A stretch of 64,000 nt of DNA, from positions 558,001 through 622,000 of the forward strand of contig NZ_CP034661.1 in the NCBI RefSeq assembly GCF_003971235.1. The letters are read 5' to 3'. The notes beneath the pieces are model-generated. The model ran no database searches and had not been told where the DNA came from. It worked only from the letters and a program-made list of their open reading frames with translations. The position numbers were made by a program, and so were the translations under genes. This DNA is from Chryseobacterium aureum. Its GTDB lineage: Bacteria; Bacteroidota; Bacteroidia; Flavobacteriales; Weeksellaceae. Numbering within the stretch: the stretch's first letter is position 1; each line of letters starts with the position of its first letter. Shown here piece after piece: positions 29,998-47,047 of the stretch.

Positions 29998-30369
29998 ATG
30001 AAGAAACTTTTTTTACTTTTATTTACGGCATTTTTATTTATCGGTTGCAGCTCAGATGATGATACCATCTATGATTATGTAGGAAGATGGTCTGGTTCTT
30101 ATGAAGGAAGTGACAAAGGAGTCTGGAACCTTGTGGTAGATGAAAGTGGTAAAGTGGTAGGAACGATGCATTCCGATGTCAATGATGAAAACTATAATAT
30201 TTCCGGAAATTTAAGTGAAACAGGAGATCTTACTGCAACCTTAGGACTTCCGTCAAAGGGAGAATTCAGAGGAACATTATCTTCTACAGATAAAAAAGGA
30301 AACGGAAACTGGTCTAACGCTCTTCCTACACCTGCCAAATCAGGAAGCTGGAAAGGAGAAAAGAAATAA
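29998..30369 (+). CDS. Small lipoprotein, unknown function
   Basis: 123 residues with a lipobox FLFIGC (Cys17), followed by SSDDD, the acidic stretch typical of surface-exported Bacteroidetes lipoproteins. The rest is a small beta-barrel-like domain with glycine-rich strands (GRWSGSYEGS, GKVVGTMHS, GEFRGTLSS, GNGNWSN). It has its own promoter and terminator. Confidence 0.75.
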   Translation: MKKLFLLLFTAFLFIGCSSDDDTIYDYVGRWSGSYEGSDKGVWNLVVDESGKVVGTMHSDVNDENYNISGNLSETGDLTATLGLPSKGEFRGTLSSTDKKGNGNWSNALPTPAKSGSWKGEKK

Positions 30370-30372
30370 AAT

Positions 30373-30406
30373 AAAAAGTCTGCAGAATTTACTGCAGACT
30401 TTTTTA
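30373..30406. terminator. Bidirectional intrinsic terminator
   Basis: Stem AGTCTGCAG/CTGCAGACT with loop AATTTA, flanked by A and T runs on both sides. It lies between two convergent genes (stops at 30369 and 30408). Confidence 0.9.
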
Positions 30407-30407
30407 T

Positions 30408-31046
30408 TTAAACGAATCCCATCTGGATAATGTCATTCTTCTCGTTTTTCAATACAATGAAGTAGAGCAGAAGGTCATCTTCGGAAAAATACTTTTTAAA
30501 GGCATAATTCTGTTCCTTGTTCCACTTAACAATTTCTTCAGCAGATTCTGCTGTGTACTTTTCAGAGTCTAATTGTAGGGTTACAAACACCGCCTGATCT
30601 GAAATGCATGCTTCATTCTTATAAAGCATTTGATCCTTAATTCTTACACTGTCCGAAACATTACTGATGCTACCCATCTGAAATTCTCTCAGGAGCTTTT
30701 TGCCTTCTGCAGTTCTTAACCCATTTTCAACTGTTCTTTTTCCTCTTTCGGAAACTTTATCCCAATCTTTAACAGCTGTCATCACTTTTGCGAACTTCTG
30801 GTAGAGTAGGGGATCGCCAGCTTCTTTAAGGTAGATTTCCAGACTCTTACGGATGATCTTCCCTATTTTTGAACAGTGTCCAAATTCTGAACTGTTCTGG
30901 CGCACTTTCTCGTAGGACGGATTCTTTTTAAAAGCCGTTTTATTGAACCCGCTTTTCTTCCGAACCACATTTTTCCCGTTCAGATTATAAAATACCAGAT
31001 CACCCACAGCTCCGGTGATCTTGATTACACTTTCATAGGTTGCCAT
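30408..31046 (-). CDS. Conserved hypothetical protein
   Basis: 212 residues, basic, no signal peptide, no membrane segment. The N-terminus (TGAVGDLVFYNLNGKNVVRK, then RQNSSEFGHCSKIGKIIRKS) is reminiscent of proteins found repeatedly in Flavobacteriia, but I cannot name the family. It has a very good promoter: -33 TTG (31090-31092), 19-base spacer, TATATTTG (31063-31070) on the minus strand. Confidence 0.6.
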   Translation of the reverse strand: MATYESVIKITGAVGDLVFYNLNGKNVVRKKSGFNKTAFKKNPSYEKVRQNSSEFGHCSKIGKIIRKSLEIYLKEAGDPLLYQKFAKVMTAVKDWDKVSERGKRTVENGLRTAEGKKLLREFQMGSISNVSDSVRIKDQMLYKNEACISDQAVFVTLQLDSEKYTAESAEEIVKWNKEQNYAFKKYFSEDDLLLYFIVLKNEKNDIIQMGFV

Positions 31047-31062
31047 ATCTTCAAAATAGAAT

Positions 31063-31092
31063 CAAATATACCAATAAATAATGGTAAACCAA
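31063..31092 (-). promoter_or_regulatory. Bacteroidetes promoter of the hypothetical gene
   Basis: Minus strand TTG (31090-31092) - 19 bases - TATATTTG (31063-31070), starting 16 bases before the ATG at 31046. Confidence 0.7.
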
Positions 31093-31154
31093 ATTTTAAC
31101 ATATATTTATCATATAGTTGTAGTATAGTTATTCCATAATTATAATATAAAATG

Positions 31155-31162
31155 TATATTTG
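31155..31162 (+). promoter_or_regulatory. Bacteroidetes -7 box of the NlpC/P60 gene
   Basis: TATATTTG, an exact TAnnTTTG match, 37 bases before the ATG at 31200. No -33 TTG at standard distance. Confidence 0.5.
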
Positions 31163-31199
31163 TACAATATTTTGTTAATTAATTACAAATCAGAAGAAT

Positions 31200-31772
31200 A
31201 TGGGAACGGGATTATTTCAACAAAAAATGAAAGTAAAGCAGATGGCTGTTATACTGGCTGCGTCTGTTTTTGTAGTTTCCTGCGGATCCTCTAAAAGCGC
31301 TTCCGCCAATAAAAGATCAAATACTAAGACTGTATCTAAAGCAGAAAATCTCAGAAAGCTGGATTCCAAATTTGACGGTAAAATTTCAAGATCCGTCAGT
31401 GATATTCTTAAGGATGCTGAAAAATACATCGGAACACCCTATAAATTCGGGGGGAATACAGCATCAGGCTTCGACTGTTCAGGTTTTACGGTAAAAGTAT
31501 TTGAAGAAAATGATCTCAACCTTCCCAGAAGATCTTCTGATCAGGCTGAAGCCGGAAAAAATATTGATATCAAAGAGGTCAAACCCGGTGATTTGTTATT
31601 TTTTGCCACAGCAGGAGGAAGCAGAGTTTCTCACGTAGGCATTGTACATGATATCGGCCCTGATGGAGAAGTAAAATTTATCCATGCATCCACTTCAAAA
31701 GGAGTAATGATTTCCTCCCTGAATGAAAAATACTGGAACAAGGCTTATCTTCATGCTCAAAGAGTGTTGTAG
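31200..31772 (+). CDS. NlpC/P60 (C40) cell-wall peptidase, lipoprotein
   Basis: 190 residues. The N-terminal lipobox VVSC places the lipidated Cys at 28 (or 19 if the second ATG at 31227 is used). The C40 domain (about 68-190) has the catalytic Cys93 in FDCSGF, His145 in VSHVGI and His162 in FIHAST. It should cleave peptide bonds in peptidoglycan, probably facing the periplasm. Single gene, followed by a palindromic non-coding element. Confidence 0.88.
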   Translation: MGTGLFQQKMKVKQMAVILAASVFVVSCGSSKSASANKRSNTKTVSKAENLRKLDSKFDGKISRSVSDILKDAEKYIGTPYKFGGNTASGFDCSGFTVKVFEENDLNLPRRSSDQAEAGKNIDIKEVKPGDLLFFATAGGSRVSHVGIVHDIGPDGEVKFIHASTSKGVMISSLNEKYWNKAYLHAQRVL

Positions 31773-31800
31773 GCTGTACCCCAAATATATATTCTTAATC

Positions 31801-31860
31801 CACCCCGTCAAAAAATTCTCTGAATTTTCGCCACCCCTCCGGAGGAGGGAAATTTTTACG
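31801..31860. repeat. Possible REP-like palindromic element
   Basis: Contains CCCTCC/GGAGGAGGG arms around a CCTCCGGAGG palindrome (about 31834-31850), with flanking AATT-rich half-palindromes (AAAATTC before, AAATTTTT after). Nothing else codes here. A single copy in this window, so repeat status is inference. Confidence 0.35.
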
Positions 31861-31943
31861 TTTCCCATTGTAATTTTTCTGTAAGCAATCATTGCAATAG
31901 TGTTGCATCCCAAAACTTAGCAAATTTGCCTAAAACTATTTAC

Positions 31944-32555
31944 ATGGCAGATTTCATCAGATTCTTTATTCCTTACTACTTCCTGTTGTTTTTTATTGTA
32001 TCTTTCTTAGGAATTAGCGTTAAAGTAGCAAAACAGATTGGCAAAAATCCCAACGTCCTTCCAAGAGATGGCTCAGCTTATGCTCTGGTAGGATTATATT
32101 TTAAACTGATTTTATTGGCACTGTTTGCTTATGTTATGCTTCTTTTGTGGTTTCCGGAATCTGTATTTCCGGCATTTAAAATTCAACTTCTGGAATCTTC
32201 TTTTTTTCAGTATACAGGTTTTTTTTTGATGATGACCGCATTTATTTGGGTGGTTATAGCCCAGATGCAAATGAAAGATTCATGGCGTATCGGTATTGAC
32301 AGCGAAATAAAAACTAACCTGATTACTCATGGATTATTCAGATTTTCAAGAAATCCTATATTCCTGGGAATGACCATCAGTCTTGCCGGTTTTTTTCTTA
32401 TTTTTCCCACTGTAATTGCTTTATCTTTTCTTATGATTGGAAGTATTTTGATGCAGATCCAGATCCGTCTTGAAGAAGAATATCTGATCAAAGAACATGG
32501 ACAGATGTACCTGGCCTATAAAAAGAGAGTAAAGCGTATGCTGAGCCTTTATTAA
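31944..32555 (+). CDS. Isoprenylcysteine carboxyl methyltransferase-like membrane protein
   Basis: I use the ATG at 31944 rather than a TTG at 31926; 203 residues. About five transmembrane helices, then the conserved PEMT/ICMT C-terminal motif: LITHGLFRFSRNPIFLGM and LEEEYLIKEHGQMYLAYKK, which bind S-adenosylmethionine in the family. Bacterial members have poorly known substrates (lipids or small molecules). It is transcribed as a single gene ahead of dapD. Confidence 0.75.
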   Translation: MADFIRFFIPYYFLLFFIVSFLGISVKVAKQIGKNPNVLPRDGSAYALVGLYFKLILLALFAYVMLLLWFPESVFPAFKIQLLESSFFQYTGFFLMMTAFIWVVIAQMQMKDSWRIGIDSEIKTNLITHGLFRFSRNPIFLGMTISLAGFFLIFPTVIALSFLMIGSILMQIQIRLEEEYLIKEHGQMYLAYKKRVKRMLSLY

Positions 32556-32593
32556 AAGCATCATGTTAAAAACGGTTTTGCTGAACTTTTTTG

Positions 32594-32601
32594 TATCTTT
32601 G
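32594..32601 (+). promoter_or_regulatory. Bacteroidetes -7 box of dapD
   Basis: TATCTTTG matches TAnnTTTG, 37 bases before the dapD ATG. Confidence 0.55.
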
Positions 32602-32638
32602 GCAGGTATAATTTTTCAAACTAATTTAAATAAGAAAC

Positions 32639-33451
32639 ATGTCGTTACAACAAACTATTGAAAATATCTGGGACAACAGAGAATTATTGCAGAATGAAGA
32701 CAGCCAAAAGGCGATCAGAGAAGTTATTTCTTTAGTTGATAAAGGGGAACTTCGTACTGCAGAACCTACAGAAAACGGATGGCAGGTGAATGAATGGGTA
32801 AAAAAAGCAGTAGTAATGTATTTCCCGATTCAGAAAATGGAAACCATTGAAGTAGGTCCGTTTGAATTTCATGATAAAATGCCTTTGAAGAGAAACTATG
32901 CTGAAAAAGGGGTGAGAGTTGTACCACATGCTGTGGCTAGAGAAGGAGCTTACATTGCTCCGGGAGTTATTATGATGCCTTCATACGTAAACATCGGTGC
33001 TTATGTAGACTCCGGAACAATGGTAGATACATGGGCTACAGTAGGAAGCTGTGCACAGATTGGTAAAAACGTTCACCTGAGTGGCGGAGTTGGTATCGGT
33101 GGGGTATTGGAACCGTTACAGGCGGCTCCCGTAATCATTGAAGACGACTGTTTCATCGGGTCAAGATGTATTGTTGTAGAAGGAGTTCACGTAGAAAAAG
33201 AAGCCGTATTGGGTGCCAATGTAGTATTAACAGCTTCTACAAAAATCATTGACGTGACAGGAGATACCCCTGTTGAGATCAAAGGAAGAGTTCCTGCACG
33301 TTCAGTAGTTATTCCTGGAAGCTATACAAAACAGTATCCGGCTGGAGAATATCAGGTTCCTTGTGCACTGATCATCGGTCAGAGAAAAGAATCTACAGAT
33401 AAGAAAACATCTCTGAATGATGCATTGAGAGAGAATAATGTAGCTGTTTAA
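32639..33451 (+). CDS. dapD: 2,3,4,5-tetrahydropyridine-2,6-dicarboxylate N-succinyltransferase
   Basis: 270 residues, the usual DapD length. N-terminal helical domain, then hexapeptide repeats of a left-handed beta-helix (about 95-230: IAPGVIMMPSYVNIGAYV, then GVGIGGVLEPLQAAPVIIED). It transfers succinate from succinyl-CoA in lysine and diaminopimelate synthesis. Homotrimer in other species. First of a five-gene run with the glycan genes, 29 bases before the next. Confidence 0.93.
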   Translation: MSLQQTIENIWDNRELLQNEDSQKAIREVISLVDKGELRTAEPTENGWQVNEWVKKAVVMYFPIQKMETIEVGPFEFHDKMPLKRNYAEKGVRVVPHAVAREGAYIAPGVIMMPSYVNIGAYVDSGTMVDTWATVGSCAQIGKNVHLSGGVGIGGVLEPLQAAPVIIEDDCFIGSRCIVVEGVHVEKEAVLGANVVLTASTKIIDVTGDTPVEIKGRVPARSVVIPGSYTKQYPAGEYQVPCALIIGQRKESTDKKTSLNDALRENNVAV

Positions 33452-33480
33452 GATTAACATTCTAAGCTAATATTACAATC

Positions 33481-34650
33481 TTGAAAGAAAAATTTCTTAA
33501 AATACTTTTAAACCCTAAATATATATTTGGGGTTTATCTTATTATATCCGTTGTTACAGCAATTTCCAAATACCTGCGGGGAGATTATGCGATCAATAAT
33601 TATCTGATTTTTAAAAACGTATTCTTCAATACCATTCATCAGAAAAACTTATTTATCCATTATCCTGATCTTTATTTTGACTTGAATCATTATGGGGTAT
33701 TTTTCAGTGCATTGATTGCTCCGTTTGCGATGATGCCGGATTGGCTTGGGATTTCACTTTGGAATATTGCCAATACTTTTATCTTTATTTACGGAATTTA
33801 TAAACTGCCGTTTTCAGACAGTAAAAAAGCGATTTTCGGATTGCTTTGTCTTCAGGAATACATTACCGCTGCTTTAAGTCTGCAATTCAATGTAGCGCTG
33901 ACAGGCCTTTTGCTGTTATCCGCAGTCTATATTTACGAAAGAAAAGAAGTAAAGTCTGTAACCGCAATTTTAATAGGGATATTTGTGAAAATCTACGGAA
34001 TTGTAGGATTAACACAGTTTTTCTTTATTAAAAACAAAATTAAATTTATTCTTTCAGGAGTTGCCATTGCTGTAGTATTTTTTGTACTTCCAATGGCGTA
34101 TTCGAGTCCGCAGTTTGTGATTCAGTGTTACTCAGACTGGTTTCAGTCTATTGTAGAGAAAAATAATGAAAATCAGGTATTGGGAAACATGCAGGATATC
34201 TCACTGATGGGTTTTGTAAGAAGAGTTTTAGGAGATGCCTCTATTTCTAATCTTGTATTTTTAGCAGGAGGGCTGCCGCTGTTTGCTTTACCTTATATCA
34301 GAATTAAACAATATAAAAATTATGCTTTCCAGCTGATGATCCTGGCTTCTACATTACTGTTTCTGGTATTGTTCAGCTCCAGTTCAGAATCTCCAACGTA
34401 TATTATTGCTGTGGTAGGAGTGCTGATATGGTTTTTCCTTCAGAAAGAAAGAACGCCGCTTATCATAGGATTGCTGGTTTTTGTCATTATTTTTACCTGT
34501 TTCTCTACTTCGGATCTGTTCCCGAAATTTGTAAAAGAGAATTATATCATTAAATATTCATTAAAAGCCGTACCTTGTATTGTAATCTGGCTGAGAGTCA
34601 CTTATGAGCTTCTGACTAAAGATTTTGAGAAAAATTATAGCCTGAATTAA
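33481..34650 (+). CDS. GT87-like integral membrane glycosyltransferase
   Basis: 389 residues, about ten transmembrane segments, in the manner of GT87/DUF2029 mannosyl- or arabinosyl-transferases that use polyprenyl-phosphate sugars. TTG at 33481 must be the start: the frame is closed by TAA at 33463 and the first in-frame ATG is more than 80 codons inside. It opens a glycan block with a GT2, a deacetylase and a GT4. Donor and product unknown. Confidence 0.65.
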   Translation: MKEKFLKILLNPKYIFGVYLIISVVTAISKYLRGDYAINNYLIFKNVFFNTIHQKNLFIHYPDLYFDLNHYGVFFSALIAPFAMMPDWLGISLWNIANTFIFIYGIYKLPFSDSKKAIFGLLCLQEYITAALSLQFNVALTGLLLLSAVYIYERKEVKSVTAILIGIFVKIYGIVGLTQFFFIKNKIKFILSGVAIAVVFFVLPMAYSSPQFVIQCYSDWFQSIVEKNNENQVLGNMQDISLMGFVRRVLGDASISNLVFLAGGLPLFALPYIRIKQYKNYAFQLMILASTLLFLVLFSSSSESPTYIIAVVGVLIWFFLQKERTPLIIGLLVFVIIFTCFSTSDLFPKFVKENYIIKYSLKAVPCIVIWLRVTYELLTKDFEKNYSLN

Positions 34651-34655
34651 TTAAT

Positions 34656-35585
34656 ATGAAGAAAATTTCAATTGTAATTCCCGCTTATAACGAAGAAGGA
34701 AACGTTGCCATGATCCATCAGAAAATTAAAGAAGTTTTTGATGGGCTGAATAACTATGACTTTGAAATCATATTTGTAAATGATGGCAGCCGAGACAATA
34801 CACAGCAGAAATTAGAAGAGCTTTCCAGCCAGTATGATGAAGTGAAATTCATAGAATTTTCACGTAATTTTGGCCACCAGCCCGCAGTAAAAGCAGGAAT
34901 GGACAATGCCCTCGGAAATGCAGTTATTTCAATGGACGGCGATCTTCAGCATCCGCCGGAGCTGATCCCTGAAATGATTCAGAAATGGGAAGAAGGCTAT
35001 GATGTTGTTTTTACCTTCAGAACCTATCCCAAAGAAATTTCTTTCTTTAAAAGAAAAACATCAGATCTGTTTTACAAGCTTTTATCAAGCCTTTCAGACG
35101 TTAATTTAACAAAAGGGGGCGGCTCAGATTTCAGACTGCTGGATGCCAGCGCTGTGGAAGTCATGAGAAACTTTAATGAAGATGATCTGTTCCTTAGAGG
35201 ATTAACAAGCTGGATGGGTTTCAAACAAACAGGAATTGATTTTACCGCAGCAGAAAGACTCTCAGGAAAAAGCAGCTATAATCTTAAAAAGATGTTTACC
35301 TTCGCCTTTACAGGGATCACAGCTTTCAGTGTAAAACCGCTTTATCTGGCAGCTTATCTGGGATTTTTATTCTCGGCACTTTCTGTAATAGGATATGGAA
35401 CGTATGTCATTCATTCATTTGTTGCCGGAACCGAAATATCAGGTTGGGCATCTTTGATTATGACCATTGTTTTCTTTGGCGGGCTTCAGCTGATCATCAT
35501 GGGAATCATGGGGATTTATTTAGGTAAAATATTCAAACAGGTGAAAGACAGACCAAATTATATTATTAAAAACAAAAATTTTTAA
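34656..35585 (+). CDS. GT2 glycosyltransferase, polyprenyl-phosphate sugar type
   Basis: 309 residues. A GT-A domain (SIVIPAYNEEGNV, FVNDGSRDNT, MDGDLQHPPE with the DxD-like centre) is followed by two C-terminal transmembrane helices (about 225-300), the layout of GtrB/DPM1 enzymes that make undecaprenyl-phosphate-linked sugars. This could feed the GT87-like enzyme upstream (5-base gap) with its donor. Confidence 0.85.
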   Translation: MKKISIVIPAYNEEGNVAMIHQKIKEVFDGLNNYDFEIIFVNDGSRDNTQQKLEELSSQYDEVKFIEFSRNFGHQPAVKAGMDNALGNAVISMDGDLQHPPELIPEMIQKWEEGYDVVFTFRTYPKEISFFKRKTSDLFYKLLSSLSDVNLTKGGGSDFRLLDASAVEVMRNFNEDDLFLRGLTSWMGFKQTGIDFTAAERLSGKSSYNLKKMFTFAFTGITAFSVKPLYLAAYLGFLFSALSVIGYGTYVIHSFVAGTEISGWASLIMTIVFFGGLQLIIMGIMGIYLGKIFKQVKDRPNYIIKNKNF

Positions 35586-35586
35586 A

Positions 35587-36363
35587 ATGGTATTATTGAG
35601 TTTTGATATTGAAGAATTTGATATGCCACTGGAATATAAGGGTGAAATTCCCTTTGAAAAGCAGATTTCAATTTCACAGACAGGATTAGAGAGAATCCTC
35701 GATATCCTTAAAAAACATAACGCAAAAGCTACCTTTTTTTCCACCGTAGTTTTTGCAGAAAACAGCAGACATCTTATCGAAAGGCTATTAAACGATGGTC
35801 ATGAACTGGCTTCTCATACCTGGTTTCATTCAGAATTTGAAGATAAACACCTGAAGGAATCCAGAGAAAGGCTGGAAGAATTATTCTCCACAAAAGTGAC
35901 CGGATTAAGAATGCCGAGGATGATGCCTGTAGACGAGAAAGAAGTGGAAAAAGCAGGATATTCCTACAATTCCTCCATCAATCCTACATTTTTACCAGGA
36001 AGGTATAATAATTTAAAAGTATCCAGAACCTATTTCAAAGAAGGAAATGTAACCCAGGTTCCGGCTTCGGTTTCACCCAACTTCAGAATTCCTCTGTTTT
36101 GGCTGAGTTTTCACAACTTTCCTTTGTTCTTCTATAAAAAGCTGGCTTCAGACAGCTTGAAAAAAGACAAATATCTGAACATTTATTTCCATCCCTGGGA
36201 ATTTGCAGAAATCAAGGAGGAAGCCTTTAAGCTCCCCGGATTTACTGTAAAAAACTCAGGAAAAGAGATGGTAGAAAGGTTTGATTCTTTTGTAGGCTGG
36301 CTGAAGGAAAAAGGACATGCATTCGGGACATTTCAGGAATTTCAAAAACAGATAGAACGATGA
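35587..36363 (+). CDS. Polysaccharide deacetylase (NodB-type)
   Basis: 258 residues. Metal-binding and catalytic features of carbohydrate esterase family 4: SFDIEEFD near residue 5, ATFFSTVVFAENS, and HELASHTWFH with the HxxxH pair. The C-terminal YFHPWEF motif matches DUF3473-type members linked to exopolysaccharide export clusters. No signal peptide, so it would act on the cytoplasmic side. Its stop overlaps the next start by 4 bases (ATGA). Confidence 0.85.
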   Translation: MVLLSFDIEEFDMPLEYKGEIPFEKQISISQTGLERILDILKKHNAKATFFSTVVFAENSRHLIERLLNDGHELASHTWFHSEFEDKHLKESRERLEELFSTKVTGLRMPRMMPVDEKEVEKAGYSYNSSINPTFLPGRYNNLKVSRTYFKEGNVTQVPASVSPNFRIPLFWLSFHNFPLFFYKKLASDSLKKDKYLNIYFHPWEFAEIKEEAFKLPGFTVKNSGKEMVERFDSFVGWLKEKGHAFGTFQEFQKQIER

Positions 36364-37457
36364 AGATTGCCTTTGATGCAAAACGGTTTTTTCACAATAC
36401 ATCCGGTCTGGGAAATTATTCCAGAGACCTTGTAAGAATCCTTTCGGAATACAAACCGGACAACGAATATCTGTTACTCAATAAGAACAAATCGGAACGT
36501 GGAAAAGAAATTCTTGAACGGCCTAATGTTCAGTTTATTGAAACCTCAAAGGGGAATTTATCCCGCCAGCTGAAAATGGGTAAAGATGCCCAAAAACAAG
36601 GAGCCAATATTTTCCATGGCTTATCCGGCGAACTTCCTTTAAAATGGGATCCAAAGCCTATTAAAAAAGTCGTTACCATTCATGACATGATCTTTGTGAG
36701 ATATCCGCAGTATTATTCTTTTTTTGACCGGAAAATCCATTTCTGGAAATTTAAAAAAGCGGCTGATTCGGCGGATAAAATTATTGCTATTTCAGAACAG
36801 ACCAAAAGAGATATTATCCGGTATTTAAAAGTTCCTGAGAATAAAATTGAAGTGATTTATCAGGGATGCCATCACGCTTTCAAAGAACAGCAGTCTCCGG
36901 AACTGATACAGGCTGTACAAGAGAAATTTAAGCTTCCTGAAAGGTTTATACTGAATGTCGGTACCATTGAAGACCGTAAAAATCTGCTGAATGTTGTCAA
37001 AGCAATCAATGGAACAGAGATCCCGCTCGTTGTCGTAGGAAGGAAGACCCAATATTATCAGAAAATAGAACATTTCCTGAAAAAAAATAAAATCGAAAAG
37101 CAGGTGTCATTCCTTGAAGGCGTTTCGATGGATGAGCTGGCATGTCTCTATAAGCTGGCAGATATTTTTGTCTATCCGAGCTTCTTTGAAGGCTTCGGAA
37201 TCCCGGTTATTGAGGCTCTTTTTTCTAAAACTGTGGTTGTTACAAGCAATACCAGTTGTCTGCCGGAAGCGGGAGGAAAAGATTCGGTGTATGTGAATCC
37301 GGACAATGAACTTGATATCCGAGCCAAAATCAAATTTCTCTGGGAAAATGAATCTGAAAGAAAACGCCGTGAGGAAAAGGGTTTCGAGTTTGTTCAGAAG
37401 TTTAATGACGAACCTATTGCACAGGAATTGATAAAGTTCTATCAAAAAATTATCTGA
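36360..37457 (+). CDS. GT4 glycosyltransferase
   Basis: 365 residues of a GT-B fold, family GT4: N-terminal acceptor domain (FDAKRFFHNTSGLGNYSR), linker, and C-terminal donor domain with FILNVGTIEDRKN, VSMDELACLYKLADIFVYPS and FEGFGIPVIEAL, where the Glu residues bind the nucleotide sugar. The start overlaps the deacetylase stop. End of the dapD-glycan operon; the his leader promoter starts 7 bases after its stop. Confidence 0.88.
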   Translation: MKIAFDAKRFFHNTSGLGNYSRDLVRILSEYKPDNEYLLLNKNKSERGKEILERPNVQFIETSKGNLSRQLKMGKDAQKQGANIFHGLSGELPLKWDPKPIKKVVTIHDMIFVRYPQYYSFFDRKIHFWKFKKAADSADKIIAISEQTKRDIIRYLKVPENKIEVIYQGCHHAFKEQQSPELIQAVQEKFKLPERFILNVGTIEDRKNLLNVVKAINGTEIPLVVVGRKTQYYQKIEHFLKKNKIEKQVSFLEGVSMDELACLYKLADIFVYPSFFEGFGIPVIEALFSKTVVVTSNTSCLPEAGGKDSVYVNPDNELDIRAKIKFLWENESERKRREEKGFEFVQKFNDEPIAQELIKFYQKII

Positions 37458-37463
37458 AAAAAC

Positions 37464-37493
37464 TTTGCATTTTAAAAATAAATCCTACATTTG
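37464..37493 (+). promoter_or_regulatory. Promoter of the his operon
   Basis: -33 TTTG (37464-37467), 18-base spacer, -7 TACATTTG (37486-37493): a full Bacteroidetes promoter. Transcription should start near 37500, 10 bases before the leader peptide. Confidence 0.85.
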
Positions 37494-37509
37494 CATTATA
37501 ATTCAAACA

Positions 37510-37560
37510 ATGAAACCAACATTTTTAGCATTACATCATTATCATCATCATCTCTGCTAG
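37510..37560 (+). CDS. hisL: his operon leader peptide
   Basis: A 16-residue ORF, MKPTFLALHHYHHHLC, with five His codons in a block of six (37534-37551). It lies behind an exact promoter and 45 bases before an attenuator terminator; the stop codon overlaps the antiterminator arm AGACGG. This is the classical set-up of histidine attenuation, in which ribosome stalling at His codons signals lack of charged tRNA-His. Too short for ordinary ORF finding. Confidence 0.9.
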   Translation: MKPTFLALHHYHHHLC

Positions 37561-37636
37561 ACGGAATTGATTGATATAAGTATGTGCTGAAATCAAAAAT
37601 AATTAAAACCGTCTGAGTAAATAGACGGTTTTTTTG
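37559..37636 (+). terminator. his attenuator: antiterminator arm and terminator hairpin
   Basis: Terminator: AAAACCGTCT (37605-37614), loop GAGTAAAT, AGACGGTTTT (37623-37632), and seven T (37629-37635). A second AGACGG at 37559-37564, over the leader stop codon, can pair with the same CCGTCT (37609-37614) and so prevent the terminator. A ribosome that finishes the leader covers this first copy and lets termination occur; a ribosome stalled at His codons leaves it free. Confidence 0.88.
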
Positions 37637-37702
37637 TTTCCTGGATTCTCCTAAGAAATTTCAATAGATCAGTTTTATTTGCTCAGACCCAAAAAAGGCA
37701 AA

Positions 37703-38560
37703 ATGAGTAAATTAAAAATTGCGATCCAAAAAAGCGGCCGGCTTTACGAAGAATCTCTTCAGCTTCTCAAAGACTGTGGAATCTTTGTCAACAACGGTAA
37801 AGACCAACTCAAAGTTTCAGTAGATAATTTCCCGATGGAAATCATGTACCTTCGGAATTCAGACATCCCTCAGTACCTGGAAGACGGCGTGGTGGATGTA
37901 GCCATTGTAGGCGAAAATCTTCTGATTGAAAAGGCTAAAAATATCAAAACAATCCAGAAACTCGGGTTTTCAAAGTGCCGCGTTTCATTGGCCGTTCCTA
38001 AAGAGGTAGAAACCGATGAGCTGTCTTATTTTCAAGGCAGAAAAATTGCTACTTCTTACCCTAATACCCTCAAAAACTTCTTAGAAAAAGAAGGAATCGT
38101 ATCAGATATTCACATTATTTCCGGTTCTGTAGAAATTGCACCTAATATTGGTCTTGCAGATGGAATTTGCGATATTGTAAGTTCCGGAAGCACTTTATTC
38201 AAAAATGGATTAAGAGAAACGGTCACTTTACTGAAATCGGAAGCTGTTTTGGCTCAAACTCCCCAACTATCAGCTGAAAAAGAAGCCATACTGGGGAAAT
38301 TTGTATTCAGAATCAAGTCAGTTTTAAAAGCAAAAAATTCAAAATACATCCTGATGAATGTCCCTAATGAAAAAATTCAGAAAGTAGCCGGTGTGCTTCC
38401 TGTACTGAAAAGTCCTACCGTTATTCCATTGGCAGAAGAAGGCTGGAGCAGTATCCATTCCGTCATTGATGAAGAACGTTTCTGGGATGTCATTGATGAA
38501 CTGAAAGAAAACGGTGCGCAGGATATTCTAATCATCCCAATTGATAAAATGGTTATTTAG
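37703..38560 (+). CDS. hisG: ATP phosphoribosyltransferase, long form
   Basis: I start at the ATG at 37703 (MSKLKIAIQKSGRLYEES), not at a TTG 24 bases upstream. 285 residues, the long HisG form with a C-terminal ACT-like regulatory domain (about 215-285), so no HisZ is needed. Motifs GVVDVAIVGENLL and GLADGICDIVSSGSTL (PRPP site). It starts histidine synthesis from ATP and PRPP and is usually inhibited by histidine. First structural gene behind the attenuator. Confidence 0.95.
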   Translation: MSKLKIAIQKSGRLYEESLQLLKDCGIFVNNGKDQLKVSVDNFPMEIMYLRNSDIPQYLEDGVVDVAIVGENLLIEKAKNIKTIQKLGFSKCRVSLAVPKEVETDELSYFQGRKIATSYPNTLKNFLEKEGIVSDIHIISGSVEIAPNIGLADGICDIVSSGSTLFKNGLRETVTLLKSEAVLAQTPQLSAEKEAILGKFVFRIKSVLKAKNSKYILMNVPNEKIQKVAGVLPVLKSPTVIPLAEEGWSSIHSVIDEERFWDVIDELKENGAQDILIIPIDKMVI

Positions 38561-38591
38561 AAAATTGATAATTGTAAAGGTAGTTCAACAC

Positions 38592-38778
38592 AAAGGCGCA
38601 ATGAAAATAAAGTTAATACTGTTTTAAGGCGCAAAGATTTTATCTGCGATAAAATTGAATGCCGTTCTCAGTCACAAAACTATACTCACGCAATTGCTGA
38701 AAATCTCACATTGAGCAAAGTTGAAATGTTCTCGCGCCTTAAAAAAGTAAAGATTAAAAAAACCTGTGCCTTTGCGTT
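38592..38778. repeat. Inverted-repeat element A (between hisG and hisD)
   Basis: Nested inverted repeats: a perfect 11-bp pair TTTTAAGGCGC (38622-38632) / GCGCCTTAAAA (38734-38744), and outer near-matches AAAGGCGCAA (38592-38601) / TGCCTTTGCGTT (38767-38778). The inner part 38626-38660 is about 85-90% the same as 40125-40160 in the gap after hisD. No coding capacity. It looks like a non-autonomous or REP-type element. Confidence 0.7.
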
Positions 38779-38831
38779 CATAAAAAAACTGGGACATATA
38801 GCTAATGGTTCAAAAAAAATAAAAAAGTACA

Positions 38832-40106
38832 ATGAAAATATACAGATATCCCACAAAAGAAACCTGGAAAGACTTGATAAAACGGCCTGTTTTGGAACAG
38901 AAAGAGATCTCCGGTCTGATCACAGAAATATTTGCAGAAGTTGAAAAAAACGGTGATCAAGCTTTAATAGAGTTCAATAAAAAGTTTGATAAAGCAGAAA
39001 CCGAGAGCATAAAAGTTTCTGATGCGGAAATTCAGGAAGCAGAAAATCAGATTAATGCTGACTTGAGAGAAGCCATTCAACAGGCTAAAGAAAATATTTC
39101 AACATTTCACGCTTCTCAAAAACAGGAGATTCAGAAAATTGAAACAACAAAAGGAGTGGTTTGCTGGCGGGAAAACCGTGCTGTAGAAAGAGTAGGAATT
39201 TATATTCCGGGAGGAACGGCCCCTTTGTTTTCCACTGTGCTGATGCTTGCAATCCCTGCAAATCTGGCGGGATGTAAAGAAATTGTATTGTGTACACCAC
39301 CGGATAAGAATGGAAATATTAATCCTGCTATTCTTTATGCTGCAAAACGTTGTGGTGTTACTGAAATCTTTAAAACTGGTGGGGCGCAGGCAATCGCAGC
39401 TATGACTCTCGGGACAGAAAGCATTCCGGCAGTGCATAAAATTTTCGGACCCGGAAATCAGTTTGTAGTTGCAGGAAAAGAATATGCACAACGTTACAGA
39501 GTGGCTATCGATATGCCTGCCGGACCGAGTGAAGTTCTTGTGATAGCTGATGAGCAGGCTGTCCCTGAATTTTGCGCCGCAGATCTTCTTTCACAGGCAG
39601 AACACGGGAGTGACAGTCAGGTGGTTTTTGTGACAACAGACCTTAAAGTATTTGAAGAGACTGTAGAGGCTGTAGAGCAGCAGATCAAAGACTTACCTAG
39701 AAATGAATTTGCCGGCCTGGCACTGGAAAGCAGTTCTTTCATTTTAGTCGGGTCACTGGACGAAGCTCTTGAATTCAGTAATCTATATGCTCCGGAGCAC
39801 CTTATTCTGGCAGTCAGCGATTTTGAGAGATATATTCCTGAAATACAGAATGCAGGATCGGTTTTCCTTGGAAACTACTCTTGTGAAAGTGCCGGGGATT
39901 ATGCCAGTGGGACGAATCACACTCTTCCTACCAATGCGTATGCGAAGAATTACAGCGGAGTGTCACTGGACAGTTTTGTGAAGAAAATAACATTCCAGCA
40001 TCTTTCAAAAGAAGGCCTTCAGAATTTAGGAAAAACAATAGAGCTCATGGCCGAAGCAGAAGGCCTGTTTGCTCACAAAAATGCTGTATCCATAAGGTTA
40101 AAATAA
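38832..40106 (+). CDS. hisD: Histidinol dehydrogenase
   Basis: 424 residues. Signatures VGIYIPGGTAPLFSTVLML, GPGNQFV, AGPSEVLVIADE, LLSQAEHGSDSQ (zinc ligands Gln/His), the catalytic YAPEHL, and CESAGDYASGTNHTLPT. It oxidises histidinol to histidine in two NAD+ steps. Separated from hisG by 270 bases that contain element A, unusual for a his operon. Confidence 0.95.
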   Translation: MKIYRYPTKETWKDLIKRPVLEQKEISGLITEIFAEVEKNGDQALIEFNKKFDKAETESIKVSDAEIQEAENQINADLREAIQQAKENISTFHASQKQEIQKIETTKGVVCWRENRAVERVGIYIPGGTAPLFSTVLMLAIPANLAGCKEIVLCTPPDKNGNINPAILYAAKRCGVTEIFKTGGAQAIAAMTLGTESIPAVHKIFGPGNQFVVAGKEYAQRYRVAIDMPAGPSEVLVIADEQAVPEFCAADLLSQAEHGSDSQVVFVTTDLKVFEETVEAVEQQIKDLPRNEFAGLALESSSFILVGSLDEALEFSNLYAPEHLILAVSDFERYIPEIQNAGSVFLGNYSCESAGDYASGTNHTLPTNAYAKNYSGVSLDSFVKKITFQHLSKEGLQNLGKTIELMAEAEGLFAHKNAVSIRLK

Positions 40107-40118
40107 TAAATGTTGGAA

Positions 40119-40200
40119 AACGCAAAGGCGCAAGGATTTTGTCTCCGATAAAAATTGAATAATGCATGTAAAAACACAAAACAAAGCGCATATTGCTTAA
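40119..40200. repeat. Inverted-repeat element B (between hisD and hisC)
   Basis: Starts with AAACGCAAAGGCGCAAGG, the reverse complement in style of the end of element A (CTTTGCGTT). 40125-40160 aligns with 38626-38660. Shorter than A; its right arm is eroded. The remaining gap to hisC (40201-40304) shows nothing else. Confidence 0.6.
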
Positions 40201-40304
40201 TAAAGATTGGAAGATATTTTCTTCACTATTCTTAATCACTCAATGCATCTTAATGGTTTAAAAACGGTTTTATAATAAATCATTTTTAAAAGAAAATCAA
40301 AACA

Positions 40305-41333
40305 ATGAAAAACAGCAGTATCAAAACACTCGTAAGAGAAAACATATTACAATTACAGCCCTACATCAGTTTCAGGGATCACAATGAGTTCAATGCCCCT
40401 GTTATGCTGGATGCCAACGAAAGTCCTTTCGGGGAATGCAACCGCTACCCGGATTCTACCCAGAAAAGGCTTAAAAGTAAGCTTGCGGAGCTTAAAAATG
40501 TTTCACCCTCACAGATGGCCATAGGAAACGGAAGCGATGAGCTGATAGACCTTATCATTAAAATCTTCTGTGAGCCTAAAAAAGATGCCATTCTGATGAT
40601 GAATCCGTCATTTGCCATGTATGGATTTTATGCAGCAATCAATGAAAATAAAGTTTCAAAGCTGAATCTGGATGAAAATTTTAACATTGTAAAAGACAAT
40701 TTCTTAAAGGTGGCAGAAGATCCTTCATTGAAAGTTTTCTTTTTGTGCTCACCCAATAATCCTACAGGAAACAGTATCGATGATATTGAATTTTATATCC
40801 AGAATTTCAAGGGAATAGTGGTAGTAGACGAAGCCTACATTGAATTTTCCCATAGAAAATCAAGTCTGGAACTTTTGGAAAAATATTCTAACCTGATTGT
40901 ATTACAAACATTCTCGAAGGCATGGGGAATGGCCGGAGCAAGAGTAGGTGTGGCTTATGCGTCCGAAGAGATCATTAGCTTAATCAATACCGTAAAAGCA
41001 CCTTATAATGTGAATGTTTTGAGTCAGGAATTGATTTTAAAGATTCTGGAGGAAGAAGACAGACTACAAAAGAACGTAACTCGTATTCTGGAAGAAAGAG
41101 TATGGCTGAAGCAGCAGTTTGAAAGTGTTGCATGCATTAAGAAAGTATTTTCCACGGATGCCAATTTCTTCCTGATCAGAATGGATAATGTAGACCATGT
41201 CTATTCTAAAATGCTGGAAGAAGAAATTTTAACCAGCAGAAGGGATCCTGCCATTCCGGGCTGTATCAGGATTAATGTTGGGGCCCGTGCAGAAAATGAA
41301 AAACTCATTGCTCTTTTAAAAAGGATATCATAA
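40305..41333 (+). CDS. hisC: Histidinol-phosphate aminotransferase
   Basis: 342 residues, PLP-dependent class II fold. The PLP lysine sits in [14 protein letters not shown]; the phosphate and cofactor loop is seen in [25 protein letters not shown], and CSPNNPTGN with the Asp in [10 protein letters not shown]. It transfers the amino group from glutamate to imidazole acetol phosphate. It lies 29 bases before hisB. Confidence 0.95.
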
Positions 41334-41362
41334 TAAAAATCTCTTATCTAAATATAAAACAT

Positions 41363-42457
41363 ATGAAAAAAGTACTCTTTATAGACCGTGACGGAACACT
41401 GATCATTGAACCCCCTACAGATTTTCAGGTAGATTCCCTGGAAAAACTGGAATTTTACCCAGGTGTTTTTCAAAACCTTGCAAAAATTGTCAGTGAGCTG
41501 GATTACGAACTGGTCATGATAACCAATCAGGATGGGCTGGGCACGGAAAGTTTCCCCGAAGAAGATTTCATAAAACCCCATGCAAAAATGCTGCAGGCAT
41601 TTGAAAATGAAGGGATCCTTTTTAGTGATATTTTAATTGATAAAAGCTTTGAACATGAAAATCTTCCTACCAGAAAACCAGGAATCGGAATGCTGGGAAA
41701 ATACATCTACGGGAATTACGACCTTGAAAATTCCTATGTAATCGGTGATCGAAATACAGATGTTCAACTTGCTAAAAATCTGAATTCTAAGGCTATTTAT
41801 CTTAATGAAAACTTAAATGCTGAAGCTGAACTGTCTACCACCCAATGGTCCGAGATCTATAACTTCTTAAAATCCGGAATGAGGAAAGCTAAAGTCTCCC
41901 GAAAAACCAATGAAACCGATATTGAAATAGAAGTCAATCTTGACGGAAACGGAAAGGCAGATATTTCAACCGGGCTTCACTTTTTTGACCATATGCTGGA
42001 TCAGATTGCAAGACACGGGAATATGGACCTTACCATTAAAGTAAATGGAGATCTTGCTGTAGATGAGCACCACACCATTGAAGATACAGGAATTGTGCTG
42101 GGAGAGGCTATTTTAAAAGCCTTAGGAAAGAAAAAGGGGATAGAGCGATACGGTTTCCTGCTTCCGATGGACGACTGCCTTTCTCAGGTGGCTATTGATT
42201 TTGGAGGAAGACCATGGTTGGTTTGGGATGCCCCGTTTAAAAGAGAAAAGATTGGAGATGTGCCTACGGAGATGTTTTTTCATTTCTTTAAATCCTTTAC
42301 AGATGCTTCAAAATCTAATCTGAACATTAAAGCTGAAGGCGATAATGAGCACCACAAAATAGAATCTATCTTTAAGGCCTTTGCAAAAGCCGTTAAAATG
42401 GCGGTAAATCAATCAGACAGTAATTACAGTTTACCTTCTACAAAAGGAAGTTTATAA
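41363..42457 (+). CDS. hisB: Bifunctional histidinol-phosphatase / imidazoleglycerol-phosphate dehydratase
   Basis: 364 residues in two fused domains. Residues about 1-165: HAD phosphatase ([33 protein letters not shown]). Residues about 170-364: dehydratase with two metal-binding repeats ([23 protein letters not shown], and [13 protein letters not shown]). Bifunctional HisB is best known from gamma-proteobacteria; its presence in Bacteroidetes is a known case of spread of the fused gene. It catalyses steps 6 and 8 of the pathway. Confidence 0.95.
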
Positions 42458-42459
42458 AT

Positions 42460-43038
42460 ATGATTGCCATAATAAAATACAACGGAGGAAATGTAAACTC
42501 TGTTCAGAATGCGCTCAACAGGCTGAACGTGGAATCTGTGATCACAGATGACCCCGAACAGATTTTAAAAGCTGATAAAGTGATCTTCCCGGGTGTAGGT
42601 GAAGCATCATCCACCATGAAGCTGCTCAGGGAAAGAGAACTTGATCTTCTCATTCCGGGTCTTCAACAACCGGTTTTGGGAATATGTCTCGGTATGCAGC
42701 TGATGTGTAAAGAAAATGAAGAGGGGAATACCGAAGGAATGGGAATTTTTGATATCAATGTCAGAAAATTTCCGGCAAAGGATATTGTTCCGCACATGGG
42801 TTGGAATACCCTTTCAGGCCAGTCTTCTCCACTGTTTTCAGGAATTGGGATGAACAGCGATGTTTATTTTGTTCACAGCTATTATTGTGAGCTTTCAGAC
42901 TTTACAACTTCTGTCTGTGATTATATTCTGCCCTTCAGCGCCTCATTGCAGAAAGACAATTTCTATGCGGTACAGTTTCACCCTGAAAAGTCTGGAATGG
43001 TAGGAAATCAGATTGTTAAGAACTTTATAAATTTATAA
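42460..43038 (+). CDS. hisH: Imidazole glycerol phosphate synthase, glutaminase subunit
   Basis: 192 residues, class I glutamine amidotransferase. Nucleophile Cys in [17 protein letters not shown]; His and Glu of the triad in [10 protein letters not shown]. It passes ammonia to HisF. The stop overlaps the hisA start by one base. Confidence 0.95.
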
Positions 43039-43763
43039 TGATGAAAATAATTCCGGCTATTGATATTATTGACGGCAAATGTGTCCGCTTATCAAAAGGA
43101 GATTACAATACAAAAAAAATATACAACGAAGATCCTGTAGAAGTGGCGAAGGAATTTGAAAGTTTCGGCATTCAGTTTCTTCACCTGGTGGATCTTGACG
43201 GGGCGAAATCCAAACACATTGTCAATCAGAAGGTCCTGGAAAACATTGCACGTTCAACTTCCCTGCATATTGATTTTGGAGGTGGATTAAAAACTCATGA
43301 AGATATTGAGACAGCTTTTAATTCAGGGGCAAAGCAAATTACTTTGGGAAGTATTGCGGTTCAGAATCCCGAATTCTGCTATGAAATGATCCAAACATAT
43401 GGTTCTGAGAAAATTATATTGGGAGCAGACTGCGACAACAGGAAAATTAAAACCTCCGGATGGCTCGAGGAAAGTGATAATGATATTATTGATTTTATCC
43501 TGCAGTATCAGGAAAAAGGAATACAAACGGTAATATGCACCGACATTGCAAAAGACGGGATGCTGGAAGGCCCTTCAACAGGACTTTACATTGAGATTTT
43601 ATACAAAACTTCAGTGAAACTGGTGGCAAGCGGCGGAATTTCCGGTATAGCTGATGTCTATAAAATGAAAGATATAGGATGCGCGGGGACCATCATCGGA
43701 AAAGCAATTTACGAAGGAAAAATAAGCCTGCAACAACTTCAAAATTTTATTGAAAATGCTTAA
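43038..43763 (+). CDS. hisA: Phosphoribosylformimino-AICAR-P isomerase
   Basis: 241 residues, half-barrel duplication TIM fold: [20 protein letters not shown] with the catalytic Asp, and [12 protein letters not shown] with the second Asp; phosphate loops [11 protein letters not shown] and ASGGISG. It isomerises ProFAR. The start could also be the next ATG at 43041. It overlaps hisF by 8 bases. Confidence 0.94.
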
Positions 43764-44508
43764 AAAAAGAATTATTCCATGTCTGGATATCAAAGATGGT
43801 GCTACCGTGAAGGGGATCAATTTTGAGGATCTTAAAAATGCAGGAGACCCCGTAGAACTAGCTAAAAAATACGAACAGGAAGGGGCAGATGAGCTTGTTT
43901 TTCTTGATATTACAGCAACTATTGAGAACAGAAAGACTTTTGTAGAACTGGTAAAGGAGATTGCAAAAGAGCTCAGTATTCCTTTTACGGTGGGAGGTGG
44001 AATTTCGTCTGTGGAAGATGTAAGAAAGCTTTTAGAAGCTGGAGCAGACAAAATCAGTATCAATTCCTCTGCGGTAAAAAATCCGGCACTTATTTCTGAT
44101 TTGGCTAAAGAATTCGGAAGCCAGTGTGTTGTGGTAGCTATCGATACAAAGCAGGTAGGAGATAAAGACCTGGTTCATATCAAAGGCGGAAGAGAGGCTA
44201 CTGCACTTGCTACAATAGAATGGGCTAAAGAAGCCGCATCTTTAGGGGCAGGAGAAATTCTGCTGACTTCTATGGATGGGGACGGTACAAAAAATGGTTT
44301 TGACCTTCGCATTACAAAACTCGTTTCGGATAACATCACCATTCCTGTGATTGCTTCAGGAGGTGCCGGTAAAGTGGATGACTTTGTTCAGGTATTTAAT
44401 GAAACAAAAGCTACCGGAGGTCTGGCAGCCAGTATTTTCCATTTTAATGAAATAGGGATTCAGGATTTAAAACAACAGCTAAAAACTCAAAAAATAGAAG
44501 TACGATGA
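43756..44508 (+). CDS. hisF: Imidazole glycerol phosphate synthase, cyclase subunit
   Basis: I chose the ATG at 43756 ([15 protein letters not shown]), the family-standard start, over a TTG two codons upstream; 250 residues. TIM barrel with Asp11 in CLDIKDG and the second Asp in [11 protein letters not shown]. Partner of HisH; forms IGP and AICAR. Confidence 0.95.
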
Positions 44509-45092
44509 AAATAGATTTTAATAAAGATAACGGGCTTGTTCCGGTAGTCATTCAGGATAACAGAACACTGCAGGTTCTGATGTTGGGGTACATGAATGAA
44601 GAAGCTTTTGAAAAAACAAAGAAAGAAGGAATTGTTACTTTTTTCAGCCGCTCCAAAAACAGACTCTGGACAAAAGGTGAGGAATCCGGTAATTTCTTAA
44701 CGGTAAAGAGTATTGATGTAGACTGTGATCAGGACACCATTTTAATTAAAGCCGTTCCCAAGAATGTGGTTTGCCATACAGGAAGCTTTAGCTGCTTCGG
44801 AGAAAAGAATACGAAAGGGTTTTTGTATGAACTGGAAGAAAAGATTTCCCAAAGGATAGACATGAAAGCTGAAGGTTCTTATACCTATTCACTTTACCAG
44901 AGAGGAATCAATAAAATGGCTCAGAAAGTAGGAGAGGAAGCCGTAGAATTGGTCATAGAAGCCAAAGATCATAACGAAGAGCTCTTTAAGAATGAAGCCG
45001 CAGACCTGCTGTATCACTTCCTGATTCTGTTGAAAGCCAAAGGATTTTCAATGGATGAGATTGAAAAAGTTCTTCAGGACAGAGATCAATAA
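44505..45092 (+). CDS. hisI: Bifunctional phosphoribosyl-AMP cyclohydrolase / phosphoribosyl-ATP pyrophosphatase
   Basis: 195 residues, fused HisI (about 1-105; [38 protein letters not shown]) and HisE (about 110-195; [20 protein letters not shown] with the metal-binding Glu residues). The start overlaps hisF by 4 bases. Steps 2 and 3 of the pathway; last his gene. Confidence 0.95.
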
Positions 45093-45180
45093 AAACAGAT
45101 TTACTTTTGGTTGTGAGATAGAACCCCTTTGGGTAAATGAAAAGCGTTATTTTAAGATCGGAGAAAATAAACTTTCAGAT

Positions 45181-45606
45181 ATGACTGACGGGCTACAGAA
45201 AGCTAAGGATTTAATGGATGACGGGCACTATTTTCCCGCTGTGGAAATTTTGCAGAATATCAGAGGGCTATCTGCAAAATCTGAACACTACAGACTGTTA
45301 TTCATGTCATACTGTTGGTATAATTTAGGAGAATATCAATGGACGGTTAATATTGCTGATGATTTATTACAGAAAGATAGGCACAATGAGTTAGCTTCTC
45401 AGATAAAATATTTGTCCTATTGCGGGCTTAAAGATTTTGATAAATCCTTACAGGAAATTATAAGGTTTTTGTCATTCAATGAAGCGGATGTATATAAAAT
45501 AACCCTGGAGGAATTATTAGCAGATATCAAAAATGGCTTTATTAATGAACAGGCTGTTATTGCTAAAATCAAAGAACTGGCATTAAAAAATAACTGTTTG
45601 AAGTAA
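45181..45606 (+). CDS. Small TPR-like protein
   Basis: I use the ATG at 45181 (MTDGLQKAKDLMDDGHYFPA...), 141 residues; an upstream in-frame start lies inside hisI and gives an odd basic N-terminus. Helical repeat pattern (FPAVEILQNIRG, YCWYNLGEYQWTVNIADDLL). No signal or known domain. Probably cotranscribed at the end of the his operon, just before its terminator; no reason to think it takes part in histidine synthesis. Confidence 0.6.
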   Translation: MTDGLQKAKDLMDDGHYFPAVEILQNIRGLSAKSEHYRLLFMSYCWYNLGEYQWTVNIADDLLQKDRHNELASQIKYLSYCGLKDFDKSLQEIIRFLSFNEADVYKITLEELLADIKNGFINEQAVIAKIKELALKNNCLK

Positions 45607-45632
45607 AATGCTTACATACGCTTTTCTAAAAT

Positions 45633-45662
45633 AAAACAGCAGGAATAGGCCTGCTGTTTTTT
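45633..45662. terminator. Terminator of the his operon (bidirectional)
   Basis: Stem AAAACAGCAGG/CCTGCTGTTTT (45633-45643 with 45650-45660), loop AATAGG, T run on the plus side and A run before it. It also serves the minus-strand M28 gene at 45682. Confidence 0.92.
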
Positions 45663-45681
45663 ATATAATCTGATTGATCTC

Positions 45682-46851: not shown

Positions 46852-46990
46852 ATCAATATTATTAATTTGGTGACACGAATGTAGTAAATAAATCACAATA
46901 AAGTGTTTAATATTGTAAATTAAATGAAAATTAATTATGAATATCATATCAGTTTATCGGTATGTATTGGGAATGCTTCAATTAGGGGTA

Positions 46991-47023
46991 AAAAAGAAAA
47001 CCTCTGAAGCTATTCAGAGGTTC
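46991..47023 (-). terminator. Terminator of M28 genes 2 and 3
   Basis: Stem AACCTCTGAA/TTCAGAGGTT with loop GCTA (46999-47008 with 47013-47022), T-rich on the minus side. 25 bases after the M28-2 stop. Confidence 0.85.
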
Positions 47024-47047
47024 TTATTAACAAAGTCTTGCAGTAAA

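Follow-up and report, generated by a model that had tools for sequence, protein, structure and literature searches.

The his operon of Chryseobacterium aureum is preceded by a short region that has the look of a histidine attenuator. By HisG, the nearest named records belong to Chryseobacterium. In the window (the whole stretch of 64,000 nt of DNA that was analysed) hisG (37703..38560, + strand) is the operon's first gene and was recognised by the NCBIfam models TIGR00070 and TIGR03455, both above cut-off. It is followed on the same strand by hisD, hisC, hisB, hisH, hisA, hisF and hisIE (38832..45092, likewise assigned by NCBIfam), which gives the gene order hisGDCBHAF-IE downstream of the leader. 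The intergenic gaps between hisG and hisD (about 271 nt, 38561-38831) and between hisD and hisC (about 198 nt, 40107-40304) are unlike those of the later his genes, which nearly touch or overlap. Upstream of these genes the + strand carries, between 37464 and 37711, a promoter-like site, a leader ORF, an arm A, an arm C, a loop, an arm D with a T7 tract, an arm E and the hisG start, in this order.

The histidine leader and its spread

The promoter-like site is of the form TTTG-N18-TACATTTG (37464..37493, + strand), with TTTG at 37464-37467, TACATTTG at 37486-37493 and a spacer of 18. We take this form to resemble the -33/-7 consensus of Bacteroidetes. A regular expression for it had a single match on the + strand of the 64-kb window, which is the site before the his leader, and the exact form was present in 72 of 97 related loci, with a spacer of 18 in 63 of those 72. 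A transcription start is predicted near 37500. The leader ORF (37510..37560, + strand), delimited from the sequence and by locus comparison, encodes MKPTFLALHHYHHHLC followed by a stop; its 16 codons comprise five for His and one for Tyr. The stop codon TAG (37558-37560) is overlapped by AGACGG (37559-37564), the arm A. The initial annotation of this DNA had described a promoter, a 16-codon leader with five His codons, a terminator with seven T and a copy of AGACGG over the stop codon, and all of these elements are present as it read them.

The His-run pattern CAYCAYTAYCAYCAYCAY occurs once in the 5.07-Mb single-contig genome, at the leader, and does not occur in the reversed control. Among the loci collected first, a counting that includes the window's own genome twice and some other repeats, 110 of 111 have a His-rich ORF upstream of hisG; the sole exception, L088, has about 100 nt of upstream sequence. 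A strict leader test, which demanded an ATG start and three His within six codons in the right place, was applied to a wider sample from the order and the phylum. The 102 loci of this sample were hand-picked among the matches listed, one or a few per genus, with a single one taken from the many 0.6-Mb genomes. The hisG start was resolved in 92 of them; the others (L185, L188, L192, L200, L202, L215, L216, L217, L219 and L221) were dropped. A strict leader was found in 82 of the 92 loci (order set, 51 of 54; phylum set, 31 of 38), where shuffles gave an expectation of 0.54. In other words, an ORF rich in codons for the amino acid that the operon produces lies upstream of that operon. A search for His-rich ORFs upstream of hisG had been suggested in the initial annotation, which considered that the leader might be an independent or strongly reshaped case. 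Among the Bacteroidota sampled it does not stand alone.

Several loci deserve separate mention. L170, the one reduced genome of 0.6 Mb in the sample, is among the ten loci that missed the strict test, and the script recorded it as being without a His leader, which is consistent with loss of the regulation in a reduced genome. L164 and L233 have in common a second short ORF, which starts M(Y/H)LKHACLPFHH and lies ahead of the his leader, about 370-430 nt upstream of hisG. In the distant loci L180, L194 and L209 the His leader ends in HHFHHSS or HGHHSS, and a palindrome-like CTCTTAAGAG or CTCTTGAGAG lies over the leader stop. A clear A:C pairing or a strong terminator was looked for in these three loci and not found, and an arrangement other than A:C and terminator may be in use there.

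Terminator and predicted antiterminator

Arm C (CCGTCTG, 37609..37615, + strand) is the 5' arm of the terminator, and A, D and E all contest it. It is followed by the loop AGTAAA (37616..37621, + strand) and by arm D (TAGACGG) with the T7 tract (37622..37635, + strand). The terminator spans 37605-37632 and the seven T occupy 37629-37635. By itself the hairpin is unexceptional, because 17 terminator-like sites were counted on both strands of 30000-48000 and the mean of the shuffles was 13.4 (sd 3.7). A terminator-like hairpin is present between leader and hisG in all 54 order loci and in 33 of the 38 phylum loci, and two-sided changes were seen at 6 of the 7 pairs of C:D.

Arm A (AGACGG, 37559..37564, + strand) supplies the 5' strand of the predicted antiterminator A:C and would be covered by a ribosome that has reached the leader stop. 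The competing arm is a recurrent feature: in 86 of 91 genus loci, as in 62 of 87 others, A:C ranked with the top 10 of 200 shuffles, and its sequences differ from lineage to lineage. The order of leader, A arm and terminator is kept in 97 distinct loci, identical upstream regions being counted once. In most genus loci arm A overlaps the leader stop; in L064, L071, L079 and L086 it lies inside the ORF. Outside the genus it mostly begins 9-20 nt upstream of the leader stop, within the last codons, which would explain the recurrent leader tails QAR, QAK and QAS.

The initial annotation had set these stems against each other as 6 bp against 10 bp. The lengths need small corrections: the terminator has 11 bp with a closing G-U pair, and in the computed fold the A:C helix extends past 6 bp, with inner pairs. 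The proposed transcription-translation attenuation is borne out by the comparison, in which leader, A and terminator occur together and A:C and C:D covary across the phylum; what had been missed is the third arm, E. Read from the aligned loci, His-codon attenuation at the hisG leader is a well supported prediction, yet it is incomplete as an account. The comparison also supports two points that go beyond the earlier reading, namely that the putative attenuator recurs in most of the sampled loci of the phylum and that there is a candidate third arm.

The enterobacterial family His_leader (RF00514) shares with this region a His-codon leader, a terminator and a competing antiterminator before the his operon, as far as the available part of the source describes it (PMC9413887). 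Unlike RF00514, the Chryseobacterium leader has different sequences and the extra arm E downstream of the terminator. RF00514 was the best sub-threshold Rfam match of the leader (24.5 bits against 49 for gathering, E 0.052), and there was no match to it at the gathering cut-off in the window or in 20 loci. The Chryseobacterium his leader is outside RF00514 by that family's cut-off, yet is predicted to work like known attenuators. The his attenuators of Firmicutes, which were predicted by comparison, likewise consist of a short His-codon leader, a terminator and an antiterminator; the available part of their description mentions no third arm, unlike the Chryseobacterium region with arm E (PMC9413887).

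The same partial text gives his attenuators for Proteobacteria and candidates in 17 genomes of Firmicutes (PMC9413887). An account of his genes across Bacteroidota describes attenuation, in the part available, for E. coli and Salmonella only (PMC8305728). Short ORFs reminiscent of leader peptides have been noted in the 5' UTRs of Bacteroides (PMC7366714, available part), and leader genes of Bacteroidetes have been counted, in the portion available, by distance only (PMC4833913). In the literature searched, which covered few subscription papers, we found no his attenuator of Bacteroidota; a printed case may exist. Bacteroid-trp (RF01692) is a printed candidate for a cis-regulatory RNA of Bacteroidetes, here compared by its table row (PMC2864571). 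In an Rfam scan of the window and of 26 other loci it was not matched at the gathering cut-off. The scan as a whole gave nothing at that cut-off in the window and, in the 26 other loci, nothing for leader families. Its single match in these loci, away from the leader, was a Flavo-1 RNA (RF01705, 46 bits, cut-off 42) on the minus strand of L133 (35-120), about 1.4 kb upstream of hisG.

Arm E, the terminator loop and the hisG start

Arm E (ATTTGCTCAGAC, 37677..37688, + strand) ends 14 nt upstream of the hisG ATG. It is complementary to the terminator 5' arm and loop (37611-37622) and also to the hisG start, arm F (ATGAGTAAA, 37703..37711, + strand), which consists of the start codon and codons 2-3. 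The end of C and the loop together read TGAGTAAA, the same as the hisG start. The loop thus imitates the start of the gene, and one arm E can serve both pairings.

The C:E helix was scored as the duplex energy of C plus loop against the spacer in 177 loci; loci were dropped if the leader or the terminator had not been called or if the spacer was < 12 nt, and the genus loci L112-L132 were left out. A z < -3 was obtained in 89 of 91 genus loci (two of which, L076 and L086, are MAGs named only Weeksellaceae), in 6 of 6 named non-genus loci, in 30 of 51 order loci and in 2 of 29 phylum loci, one of the latter (L201) being set aside by hand as chance. Scored E was absent from two of the 91 genus loci (L052 and L091) and from 21 of the 51 order loci. 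L165 was counted as E-less; E is visible there by eye and the terminator was mis-called.

Covariation was assessed in alignment A1, whose 59 sequences are 37 numbered above L104 and every fourth genus row (22). For C:E, 94.1% of the cells are paired. Two-sided changes occur at 8 of the 12 pairs, which 2 of 500 shuffles reach, and the covariation score of 0.288 was reached by none of 500 shuffles, slid registers giving at most 0.058. Bases left unpaired in the terminator loop join C:E, as can be seen where the loop GAGTACA meets E TGTACTC (L223-226), where GAGTATATCA meets TGATATACTC (L231) and where GACAATC meets GATTGTTTC (L149 and L151). That C:E might aid termination was considered and rejected, since E is transcribed only after the T tract.

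When a covariance model of C to F was run on 36 genus genomes, 35 of them gave a single strong site each, located at hisG, and the other genome was without a HisG match. Other sites of the model in the genus were weak (E 0.004 to 0.06). Matches at E <= 0.1 were obtained in 42 of 59 genomes, some of the loci being in the model by construction. A simple pattern of E plus start, TACTCA...ATGAGTA, was also tried genome-wide and proved uninformative, hitting one further site where the reversed control gave 2 and 4; it misses the window's own site because E there reads TTTGCTCA.

Another amino-acid leader was observed in the same genome. Upstream of the best chorismate-binding (trpE-like) match, at L236, a Trp leader ORF MLKMNNNIWWWLSNSSSGLKVLSCC (IWWW) precedes a hairpin and a run of T; leader-peptide attenuation in this genome thus probably extends beyond his. 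This leader had no Rfam match. An E arm before trpE was sought by eye and not seen; E therefore looks his-specific in its own genome. At ilvD (L239) and at one homoserine dehydrogenase locus (L241) no obvious leader was found.

The second helix, E:F, has 93.8% paired cells in its alignment. Two-sided changes occur at 5 of 8 pairs (reached by 1 of 500 shuffles), and the covariation score is 0.186 (reached by 0 of 500, with slid registers at most 0.068). E:F has z < -2 in 119 of the 126 E-bearing loci. In 18 representatives, each of 20000 permutations of the partners paired less well than the species' own combinations, both for C:E and for E:F, and AGT is codon 2 of hisG in 121 of the 126 E-bearing loci against 8 of 50 E-less ones; kinship among the loci inflates these permutation results and AGT counts, as it does the shuffle results for both helices. 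The clearest separate cases, in which the hisG start and E are both altered, are L140, L145, L150 and L223-226. E:F is weak in seven of the 126 loci (L095, L099, L109, L133, L153, L174 and L231). Two of these, L153 and L174, lack E:F but still show a good C:E, which may therefore serve some other function in them. Several changes in hisG codon 3 are unmatched in E.

Among 54 genes of the window, one has a stronger start pairing than hisG. Synonymous recoding of the hisG codons lowered the fold to a mild degree (mean z -1.09 in 88 genus loci and -0.32 in 38 others). An extension of the predicted E:F stem into hisG codons 4-9, mainly in the genus, is supported only mildly.

Folding order and a predicted double lock

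In equilibrium folds of the growing transcript A:C appears first, if A is free, followed by C:D, by C:E and by C:D together with E:F as D, E and F emerge. Once D has been made, A:C loses to C:D at equilibrium (P about 0.01), and in the full-length fold hisG is closed irrespective of the state of A. The antiterminator and the open state must therefore be kinetic. Barriers between the states were estimated by a path-based heuristic. They amount to 11.9 kcal/mol from A:C to C:D, 4.0 kcal/mol from A:C to C:E, 14.9 kcal/mol from C:D to C:E, 5.4-5.9 kcal/mol from C:D to C:D with E:F, and 15.7-21.5 kcal/mol from C:E to C:D with E:F. On these values A:C would hold out against C:D yet pass readily into C:E as soon as E exists, whereas C:D, if formed, would seldom become C:E and would rapidly be joined by E:F. 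The order of the barriers is identical in 125 of 125 distinct loci and follows largely from topology. When E has just emerged, C:E is favoured in 88 of 88 genus loci but in only 23 of 38 loci outside the genus.

To judge by the size of its footprint, a ribosome that stalls on the earliest His codons would leave A free, whereas at the stop codon it would cover A. Ribosomes of Flavobacteriales are not known to rely on Shine-Dalgarno pairing. In the mechanism that we propose, the ribosome would reach the leader stop when histidine is plentiful and would cover A; C:D would form and transcription would end. Transcripts that leak through would keep C:D, and E, being thus free, would close the hisG start via E:F. 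When histidine is short, the ribosome would stall at the first His codons, A would pair with C before D is made, and the polymerase would pass. After antitermination the exposed loop and D would let E invade quickly and form C:E, which would keep E off the hisG start, and hisG would be translated. Because C:E resists replacement by E:F (the barrier of 15.7-21.5 kcal/mol), the hisG start would stay open.

We lean towards the view, suggested by the compared loci and the computed folds, that this is a his leader-peptide attenuator acting twice, by early termination and, as a likely second step, by concealing the start codon of hisG. The fuller model, which we hold to have about an even chance of being correct, is that of a double-locked attenuator of Flavobacteriales: one leader ribosome would set both the passage of the polymerase and the opening of the hisG start, with the start-imitating loop serving as a kinetic memory.

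It might be thought that the region is a plain transcription attenuator. In that case C:E would only hold the terminator hairpin open in read-through mRNA, for reasons of stability or ribosome passage, and the match of E with F would be a by-product of a common ATGAGTAAA start. L153 and L174, which retain a covarying C:E without E:F, fit such a reading, as do the better support for C:E than for E:F as a helix and an equilibrium that is closed in the end, whatever A does. It is nevertheless a rather unlikely explanation, because E:F also covaries, own partners do better than permuted ones, and AGT starts accompany E (in 121 of 126 loci, against 8 of 50). We regard as improbable a scheme of the opposite sign, in which C:E would be the translation-off form, blocking ribosome entry upstream of the hisG ATG, and A:C would free E. 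In most loci 13-25 nt do separate the end of C:E from the hisG ATG (values that are overestimated by three for the genus), a distance comparable to a ribosome footprint. However, E once freed would bind F and mask the start codon itself, and the AUG of hisG is 74% unpaired with C:E held against 34% in the other computed states. That there is no attenuator, only a chance His-rich ORF beside the terminator of the upstream gene, is barely credible, for although the hairpin alone is within the regional shuffle expectation (17 against 13.4), strict leaders, at 82 of 92 loci, far exceed theirs of 0.54, both A:C and C:D show conservation and covariation, and a promoter-like site sits between the upstream gene and the leader.

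For an attenuator that acts twice as we propose, vmlR of Bacillus subtilis is the nearest printed precedent that we found, combining a terminator with a lock on the initiation site that a single stalled ribosome opens (PMC9226507, available part). There, likewise, a ribosome stalled on a uORF favours the antiterminator, the last hairpin, SL-4, hides the initiation site, and a pairing in the read-through transcript has been proposed to open SL-4 (PMC9226507). At the his locus the predicted and covarying E:F is a hairpin of this kind, hiding the initiation site downstream of the terminator, and the predicted and covarying C:E, together with the barriers, provides an alternative pairing that would open the lock in read-through RNA. 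The antibiotic-stalled uORF of an ABC-F resistance gene has no counterpart here, the leader being His-rich and the gene being hisG; vmlR senses antibiotics, whereas the predicted signal of the his region is its His codons (PMC9226507). Moreover, vmlR hides its Shine-Dalgarno sequence, as described in the same partial source, whereas the predicted his lock would hide the start codon, by means of an arm that is complementary to the terminator arm and loop.

If the spread of the leader is as it appears, leader-peptide control of histidine synthesis would reach most of the Bacteroidota sampled, beyond the Proteobacteria and some Firmicutes for which the literature searched describes it. The region itself would be a small natural RNA in which C and the loop are contested by three partners in the order of their transcription. 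With a start-codon lock, a general question comes within reach of experiment: do attenuators also shut off the transcripts that get past termination, and is that decision carried by co-transcriptional folding? If the lock is real, transcripts that slip through the terminator in rich medium would stay silent, while antiterminated transcripts would be translated.
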